A stretch of 64,000 nucleotides of DNA, taken from the NCBI GenBank assembly GCA_013215285.1, contig JABSRD010000008.1:33406-97405 (forward strand), in the 5' to 3' direction. The notes under the pieces were generated by a model that saw only the letters and a program-made list of their open reading frames with translations, did no database searches and was not told the DNA's origin. The position numbers and the translations under genes were made by a program. Below, piece after piece: positions 45,816 to 48,399 of the stretch (position 1 is its first letter; each line of letters opens with the position of its first letter). The DNA comes from Candidatus Nitrosopumilus sp. GTDB taxonomy: Archaea > Thermoproteota > Nitrososphaeria > Nitrososphaerales > Nitrosopumilaceae.

Positions 45816-46607
45816 TTGAATCAAGACATCATAAAAGAAATTCAAAATCAAGACTATTCCAAGATTACTGAAATGATTGAGGGTTTTTTATCAGACAAAA
45901 TCACAGAATCCAATACAAATGGAATAATTTTAGGATTAAGTGGTGGAATAGATTCAGCAGTTTTAGCTTATCTTTGTAAAAGAAAACTAAAAGAGAAAAC
46001 TTTGGCAATTATAATGCCAGATACGGCAATTACGCCAAAAATAGAAACAGAAAATGCAATGAAAATGATTGCATTAACTGGAATAGAATACAAGTTAATC
46101 GATATCAAACCAATTGTAAATGAGTATACTATGTATCTTGAACCAAATGACAAATCCAAAGGAAATCTAAGAGCACGAATTAGAACTAATATTTTGTATT
46201 ACTATGCAAACTCTAAAAATTATCTAGTTTTAGGATCAAGTGATAAAAGTGAAAATCTAATTGGTTATTTTACAAAATTTGGAGATGGTGCATCAGATAT
46301 TACTCCAATAATTTCATTATACAAACTCCAAGTAAGAGAGATAGCAAAATACCTCGGAGTTCCAGACAATATCATTTCAAAAAAGAGTAGTCCACATTTA
46401 TTGGAAGATCATGAAGCTGAAAAAGAATTGGGTGCATCATATGAAGAAATTGATTCTATTTTGTATTGTTTGATTGAAAAAAAATTATCTGTTGGGGAAA
46501 CAGTGAAAATTACTTTAATTGAAAAATCAATGGTAGAGAAAATTTATGAATTGAATGTAAACAGTGAACATAAAAGATTGTCAGCAGCAAAACCAGATAG
46601 TGAATAA
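45816..46607 (+). CDS. nadE: NAD synthetase
   Basis: LGLSGGIDSAVLAYLCKRK, VLGSSDKSENLIGYFTKFGDGASDITPI; TTG start. Confidence 0.95.
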   Translation: MNQDIIKEIQNQDYSKITEMIEGFLSDKITESNTNGIILGLSGGIDSAVLAYLCKRKLKEKTLAIIMPDTAITPKIETENAMKMIALTGIEYKLIDIKPIVNEYTMYLEPNDKSKGNLRARIRTNILYYYANSKNYLVLGSSDKSENLIGYFTKFGDGASDITPIISLYKLQVREIAKYLGVPDNIISKKSSPHLLEDHEAEKELGASYEEIDSILYCLIEKKLSVGETVKITLIEKSMVEKIYELNVNSEHKRLSAAKPDSE

Positions 46608-46608
46608 A

Positions 46609-47997
46609 ATGAAAATACAAGATACATTATCAAATTCAGAACAAGTGTTAGATATTTCAAAAAAAGTGAAAATCTATCTTTGTGGAGTGACAGTTTATGA
46701 TGAATCACACATTGGTCATGCAAGAACCATAATAGTTTTTGATGTTTTAAGAAAATATTTAGAAAAAAAAGGGGTGGAGATAGAATTTATTCAAAATTTT
46801 ACAGATGTGGATGATAAAATCATCAATAGAGCACAAAAAGAGAACACTACTGCAGCAATGATTAGTACTAGATATATTGAAAATTATTTCAAAGATTTTG
46901 ATGGACTAAATGTTAAACGTGCAACAAACTATCCAAAAGCTACAGAACACATTGAAGATATTATCAAATTTATTGAAAAATTAATAGAAAAACAAGTTGC
47001 ATATACTACTAAAAATGGCGTCTATTTTTCCATATCAAAATTTCCAGAATATGGAAAATTATCAAAAAAGAAAATAGATGAACTACAATCAGGAGCAAGA
47101 ATTGAAGTAGACGAGTCAAAAAAAGATCCGTTAGATTTTGCAGTGTGGAAGTTCTCAGATGTAGAACCTGTATGGGATAGTCCATGGGGAGAAGGTAGAC
47201 CAGGATGGCACATAGAATGCTCTGCAATGAGTATAAAATATCTTGGAGAAAATTTTGACATACACGGAGGAGGAAGAGATCTAATTTTTCCCCATCATGA
47301 AAATGAGATTGCACAATCAGAATCATGTACAGGAGTGTCATTTGCAAAGATTTGGATGCATGTTGGAATGGTAACAATTAATGGTGAAAAAATGTCAAAA
47401 TCGCTTGGCAATATAAAATCAATAAAACATGTTTTAGAGAATTGGGGTCCAAACATTATACGATTATTTTGTCTGTCAGGACACTATTCAAAACCAATTG
47501 ATTATTCTGACGAATTATTAAAAGAGAATCTCACAAAATGGAGACAAGCTGAAACATGTTATTATGAATTAATTCATGTAATTAGTGAAAATCACGAAGA
47601 AATCAATCCAGTAATTGAAAAAATAAGTATAGAATTTGACAGTGCATTAGATAGTGATTTTAACACACATCTGGCATTATCTGCATTTTTCCAACTTGTC
47701 AAAGAAGCAAATAGATTAGTAGCTGATGAAAAACTTGGAAAAGAAGATGCTAAAATCATCAAAACTGAATTTGAAAGAATGATGGAGATATTAGGATTAA
47801 TTATTCCAAAAATTACAGAAAAAGAAAAACAAGAAATAGACGATTTAATTAAAAACAGAGAAAAATTTAGAAAAGAAAAACAATTTGAAGACGCAGACAA
47901 AATTAGAGAAAAACTAAATGAGATGAATATTGAATTGATTGATCATAAAGGAAAAACAATCTGGATGAAAAAAGAAAACATTAAAGCAGAAAATTAA
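46609..47997 (+). CDS. cysS: cysteinyl-tRNA synthetase
   Basis: YLCGVTVYDESHIGHARTIIVFDVLRKYL, WHIECSAMS, KMSKSLGN; the 46564 start in the ORF track overlaps nadE, ATG at 46609 is more likely. Confidence 0.96.
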   Translation: MKIQDTLSNSEQVLDISKKVKIYLCGVTVYDESHIGHARTIIVFDVLRKYLEKKGVEIEFIQNFTDVDDKIINRAQKENTTAAMISTRYIENYFKDFDGLNVKRATNYPKATEHIEDIIKFIEKLIEKQVAYTTKNGVYFSISKFPEYGKLSKKKIDELQSGARIEVDESKKDPLDFAVWKFSDVEPVWDSPWGEGRPGWHIECSAMSIKYLGENFDIHGGGRDLIFPHHENEIAQSESCTGVSFAKIWMHVGMVTINGEKMSKSLGNIKSIKHVLENWGPNIIRLFCLSGHYSKPIDYSDELLKENLTKWRQAETCYYELIHVISENHEEINPVIEKISIEFDSALDSDFNTHLALSAFFQLVKEANRLVADEKLGKEDAKIIKTEFERMMEILGLIIPKITEKEKQEIDDLIKNREKFRKEKQFEDADKIREKLNEMNIELIDHKGKTIWMKKENIKAEN

Positions 47998-48000
47998 AAA

Positions 48001-48077
48001 TTAGTTTACACTAATTAGTTTATACTAATTATTTTTGTGCGCAAAAAAATTAGGTGAATCTAATTAGTTGTATCTAA
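48001..48077. promoter_or_regulatory. four TTAG-N6-CTAA operator-like palindromes in two abutting pairs
   Basis: 48001..48014, 48015..48028, 48050..48063, 48064..48077, immediately upstream of ORF 48118. Confidence 0.6.
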
Positions 48078-48117
48078 TTTTCGTAGTGTTTAATAGAATT
48101 ATTCACAAATATAATAC

Positions 48118-48399
48118 ATGAATGTATGGAATAAATTTTGGCAATGGTATGAAAATAAAATACTAGGAAGTATAATCATTATTGCAGTTATACAATTTAT
48201 ACAAATACCTCACATGATATGGAATTTAGATATAATGTTAGAAGCAGGAATTGTATCAAGAGTTCATCCAGTTATTGATTGGTTCCTGTATGGAGTGGAC
48301 TTGATTGAAATAATTTCAATAATTAATGTTGGAATGATAATGTTCAGTCTAATTAAGAAGAGACGAGCTAAAAAACAAGTTGCAGCAAAAATGACATAA
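48118..48399 (+). CDS. small membrane protein
   Basis: Two hydrophobic helices, basic C-terminus. Confidence 0.65.
   Translation: MNVWNKFWQWYENKILGSIIIIAVIQFIQIPHMIWNLDIMLEAGIVSRVHPVIDWFLYGVDLIEIISIINVGMIMFSLIKKRRAKKQVAAKMT

Follow-up and report, generated by a model that had tools for sequence, protein, structure and literature searches.

A conserved array of abutting TTAG-N6-CTAA boxes as the probable operator of a DtxR-family metal regulon in Nitrosopumilus

Archaeal metal genes are under the control of DtxR-family proteins in Halobacterium (Idr/SirR) and Archaeoglobus (MDR1), and archaeal DtxR regulons were reportedly described by Leyn and Rodionov in 2015. Ptr2 of Methanocaldococcus, an Lrp-family protein, has its sites directly upstream of BRE/TATA and recruits TBP. 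A literature search that covered neither Leyn and Rodionov (2015) nor Martinez-Pastor (2017) found no description of a thaumarchaeal DtxR regulon. For IdeR, promoters that are activated, such as that of bfrB, have multiple boxes upstream, and at repressed promoters a box covers the start site or the -10 region (PMC8464063, PMC10317159). The 14-bp sequence TTAGGNNNNCCTAA has been proposed as the consensus for a single IdeR dimer (Marcos-Torres 2021, PMC8464063), and the role of such single-dimer boxes is a stated open question (PMC10317159). Read from its letters, the 19-bp IdeR box TTAGGTTAGSCTAACCTAA is a pair of TTAG-N6-CTAA sites shifted by 5 bp relative to each other.

The window, by which we mean the whole stretch of 64,000 nucleotides of Candidatus Nitrosopumilus sp. 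DNA that was analysed, contains four such sites between cysS and the gene of a 93-aa membrane protein, arranged as follows:

46564..47997, + strand: cysS (Pfam PF01406), the upstream neighbour, outside the operator
48001..48014, unstranded: distal box 1, TTAGTTTACACTAA, exact TTAG-N6-CTAA match
48015..48028, unstranded: distal box 2, TTAGTTTATACTAA, exact match abutting box 1
48029..48049, unstranded: spacer, reading TTTTTG-TGCG-CAAAAA, its A-tract adjoining box 3
48050..48063, unstranded: proximal box 3, TTAGGTGAATCTAA, exact TTAG-N6-CTAA match
48064..48077, unstranded: proximal box 4, TTAGTTGTATCTAA, exact TTAG-N6-CTAA match
48083..48088, + strand: presumed BRE region, placed by its position relative to TATA
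48089..48095, + strand: TATA box TTTAATA, with TTTA at -29 to -26 near-invariant in 88 promoters
48118..48399, + strand: target gene, 93-aa membrane protein with two long predicted helices

The four sites of the preliminary description are all exact and form two abutting pairs, and its distances hold to the nucleotide: the second pair begins 49 bp after the start of the first, and the gap between 48077 and the ATG at 48118 is exactly 40 nt. With its first start codon taken as the start, cysS shares 44 nt with the end of nadE (46564-46607). Single TTAG-N6-CTAA sites number six in the 64-kb window versus 1.15 +/- 0.93 in shuffled sequence, and 59 genome-wide, where approximately 33 are expected and the reversed pattern occurs 113 times. 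Since this reversed control outnumbers them, bare single sites were dropped as evidence; alone they are non-specific, and the specific signals are doublets and promoter-linked singles. The whole genome contains two doublets, both in this array, versus approximately 6e-4 per genome expected under a first-order Markov model. A chance origin of the doublets was rejected, the controls being empty or nearly so.

Pattern searches, the method of all our regulon scans, identified doublets in 88 of the 96 Nitrosopumilus genomes and, with the reversed control, in only one of the 96. The conservation is positional as well. Among 78 distinct orthologous promoters, retrieved solely by homology of the encoded protein, every one has an exact box 39-42 nt before the ATG, and in 72 the proximal doublet ends 39-41 nt before it. 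The column consensus of 88 aligned promoters, aaaaaAATTAGnnnagTCTAATTAGtnnnaTCTAATTTTcannntgTTTAaTagaat, has TTTA at -29, which places the boxes directly upstream of BRE/TATA; from the position of this TTTA, the mRNA of the target gene is probably leaderless. Boxes abut at a 14-bp offset in every doublet seen and occur in tandem arrays of two to five, some species having four abutting boxes with identical spacers. The high cooperativity proposed in the preliminary description may go with such tandem arrays. An expanded array lies before the membrane-protein gene of one genome (G102; locus L179, contig G102:C91, 1501-1739), where a five-box block is joined by a four-box block and most boxes share the spacer GACGCG, pointing to a recent expansion of boxes. 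In the phased distal pair both boxes are exact in 12 of the 88 aligned promoters, with one box in 13 more; by this distribution the distal pair, 49 bp further upstream, is optional. The spacer consensus in relatives is 'ttt..gc.taaaaaAATTAG', and the hairpin that the preliminary description read in the spacer is correct in its letters; relatives retain the A-tract, not the small hairpin. The fixed spot before a conserved TATA box, the genus-wide conservation and the common target genes bear out the proposed operator. Of the two findings that would have told against it, a lack of promoter bias and a lack of conservation in close relatives, neither applies to the doublets; the bare single motif is not enriched over the reversed control. 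Judged by its conservation, then, the array is a real operator.

The gene it precedes is near-universal in Nitrosopumilus. Of 37 genomes of the genus, 35 encode an orthologue of the 93-aa protein (the genome under study counted), and most of its relatives in the named GTDB collection come from Nitrosopumilus. The alignment has six invariant residues (H32, D38, H50, D54, D61 and E64), searches of Pfam and NCBIfam returned no family match, and the AlphaFold model is of moderate confidence (mean pLDDT 78.5, pTM 0.44). Other doublets in the genus, with boxes at approximately the same distance, precede genes for small double-zinc-ribbon proteins and one ferritin, and a TFB paralogue lies behind boxes at a slightly larger distance. 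In addition, ferredoxin genes in all 12 well-assembled genomes have a single box in front of them, with the same spacing to TATA (10 exact, 2 with one mismatch); in the genome under study such boxes precede two ferredoxins and one zinc ribbon. A 57-aa zinc-ribbon protein is encoded behind a degenerate doublet (G000:C20:54144-54320, L192), and its paralogues adjoin TFB paralogues (L249), a gene for Hsp20 (L168), one for a rhodanese-like protein (L058, L192) or one for a winged-helix-like protein of approximately 69 aa (L054, L072).

Within the order, doublets were found in families f1, f2, f3, f4 and f8 only. Their targets outside Nitrosopumilus include FTR1, FeoB, a ZIP transporter, DtxR genes (Fe_dep_repress protein) and small HTH proteins. 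For example, a doublet stands at the head of an FTR1-dtxR operon in three genomes (G055, G126 and G039), and in G135 one doublet heads a truncated FTR1 plus dtxR (G135:C27) and another dtxR alone (G135:C62), both loci continuing with a ferredoxin-like gene that by eye resembles the Nitrosopumilus targets. The boxes of f4 and f8 approach TTAGGN4CCTAA, which is the 14-bp site published for a single IdeR dimer, and those of Nitrosopumilus retain only one C of CCTAA. Family f8 also has small PF12840-like HTH proteins whose start codon follows the doublet directly (L335, L346, L348, L349, L350), which may be a second-tier regulator under the same control, and large predicted secreted proteins behind boxes (L344, L351, L353) that have no Pfam match and are possibly extracellular metal-binding proteins.

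These observations suggest that the array is probably the operator of a DtxR-family metal regulon. The box, the genes targeted in sister families and a candidate protein agree in pointing to the DtxR/IdeR family, which narrows the "unknown regulator" of the preliminary description to a family. The sites match the DtxR/IdeR form TTAG(G)NNNN(C)CTAA, being exact TTAG-N6-CTAA at four places, and the genes under the box include those of iron homeostasis and iron proteins. The classic 19-bp operator with two overlapping dimers is not present here, as the boxes abut; since a single-dimer form has been published, we regard the array as a variant form. The signal would be iron.

DtxR-family proteins were present in all 20 genomes tested, mostly as two kinds, IdeR-like and MntR-like. 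By position in the DtxR alignment, the IdeR-like protein of the genome under study (G000:C1:92224-92673) has the equivalents of Met10, Cys102, Glu105 and His106, an iron-type primary site, and also retains Pro39 and Gln43; the ancillary ligands His79 and His98 appear replaced. The Met/Cys ligand pair is the Fe-selective one (PMC10317159). The DtxR proteins encoded next to boxes in f4 belong to the IdeR-like kind and carry Glu at the Met10 position. No doublets were found in the families that lack a clear IdeR-like protein (f5, f6, f7, f9, f10, f12, f13 and f15), and genera g22, g28, g29 and g8 have an IdeR-like protein with doublets mostly absent. One 99% complete, single-contig genome (G064) has four perfect doublets and three MntR-like proteins and no IdeR-like protein, and four more fragmented assemblies (G011, G020, G028 and G324) also combine arrays with the lack of an IdeR-like protein. 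Because of these genomes, we assign the array to the IdeR-like protein specifically with less assurance than to its family, considering it a plausible and somewhat favored candidate. Autoregulation of the Nitrosopumilus DtxR genes was considered and rejected, as no box was found before them, that of the IdeR-like protein in this genome included; a box is present in one f4 genome.

We lean modestly towards activation as the sign of regulation at this promoter, since the arrangement of the boxes here resembles that at published multi-box activated promoters. Each 14-bp box would hold one regulator dimer, and Fe2+-loaded dimers on two abutting boxes would help TBP/TFB onto the promoter, so that the 93-aa membrane-protein gene would be on at sufficient iron together with the box-bearing ferredoxins and small zinc-ribbon proteins. 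Sister families have the order TATA, then directly the box, then the start codon; as the three adjoin, the box likely covers the transcription start, and there the regulator would repress iron uptake. Counted by pattern, with shuffled flanks as controls, the box lies upstream of TATA (activator-like) in 116 cases and downstream (repressor-like) in three in f1, versus one and 35 elsewhere (Fisher p = 4e-30, a value that overstates independence because the sequences are related); phylogeny and base composition confound the test as well as the association with clade. The full proposal, namely that stacked single-dimer IdeR boxes upstream of TATA activate, that sister families repress and that the 93-aa protein is a new iron-handling protein, is a tentative one.

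The DtxR protein might instead act as a repressor here, blocking TFB at the BRE, in which case the membrane protein would be made in iron starvation as a possible uptake component. The end of the box is close to the presumed BRE, iron-uptake genes of sister families stand behind the same box, and the known Fe-specific transporters are missing in N. maritimus, where the ferric reductase is also unidentified (PMC6776035). Nevertheless, the box of those uptake genes comes after TATA, in contrast to its place before TATA in all orthologues of the gene studied here, and the ferredoxins and ferritin, which are expected to rise with iron, have the same upstream layout; we consider repression at this promoter less likely than activation.

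Within the DtxR family, the operator could also belong to the MntR-like protein (G000:C3:27079-27543, which has the MntR ligand set) or a paralogue, with manganese or another metal as the signal. All genomes in which the DtxR proteins were read encode one of this kind, G064 among them, but f7 and f10 have it and lack doublets, so its presence does not track that of the boxes. Moreover, f4 boxes head operons with the IdeR-like and not the MntR-like protein, position 43 of the recognition helix is K rather than Q, and the genes under the box encode iron proteins and iron transporters, which together make this assignment improbable. We consider it still a little less probable that a regulator outside the DtxR family, for example of the Lrp or ribbon-helix-helix type, acts on 14-bp-spaced CTAATTAG elements. 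Short tandem arrays of constant period are, as a matter of general knowledge, typical of such regulators too, and G064 has no IdeR-like gene, yet the exact geometry of the single-dimer IdeR box, the iron-transport targets and the linkage to dtxR genes all point to the DtxR family. Finally, an RNA hairpin or the overlapping cysS terminator of the preliminary description, with the whole 85 nt as one long stem, can be practically dismissed: the 39-nt arms are 77% complementary and the RNA fold has z = -4.45, but palindrome arrays fold so by themselves, the distal arm is absent from most relatives that retain the proximal doublet, the element is upstream of the TATA box of its target, neither an Rfam match nor an intrinsic-terminator-like site was found at the array, and the array is also present where another gene than cysS lies upstream. 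In several species (L164, L170, L177, L237) a divergently oriented gene for a pyrimidine-dimer DNA glycosylase (PF03013) takes the place of cysS.

The two promoter positions that one box takes in related archaea make a natural case for study, as does the array itself, which would represent single-dimer IdeR boxes. As a conserved and probable iron operator, the array yields a testable list of genes headed by the near-universal Nitrosopumilus membrane protein, in a genus of which one species, N. maritimus, lacks any known transporter specific for iron (PMC6776035).

Compared with the actinobacterial IdeR/DtxR boxes, those described here share the half-site TTAG(G), the 14-bp palindrome with its 6-bp center and the iron-related targets. 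They differ in that the archaeal boxes abut at a 14-bp offset, whereas the actinobacterial ones overlap at a 5-bp offset, and the proposed regulon differs from its actinobacterial counterparts in its archaeal TATA promoters and in having uncharacterized membrane and zinc-ribbon proteins among its targets. With the archaeal systems of Idr/SirR and MDR1 it would share the control of metal genes by a DtxR-family protein. The position of the array directly upstream of BRE/TATA resembles Ptr2-type activation, although Ptr2 belongs to the Lrp family and has a different motif.
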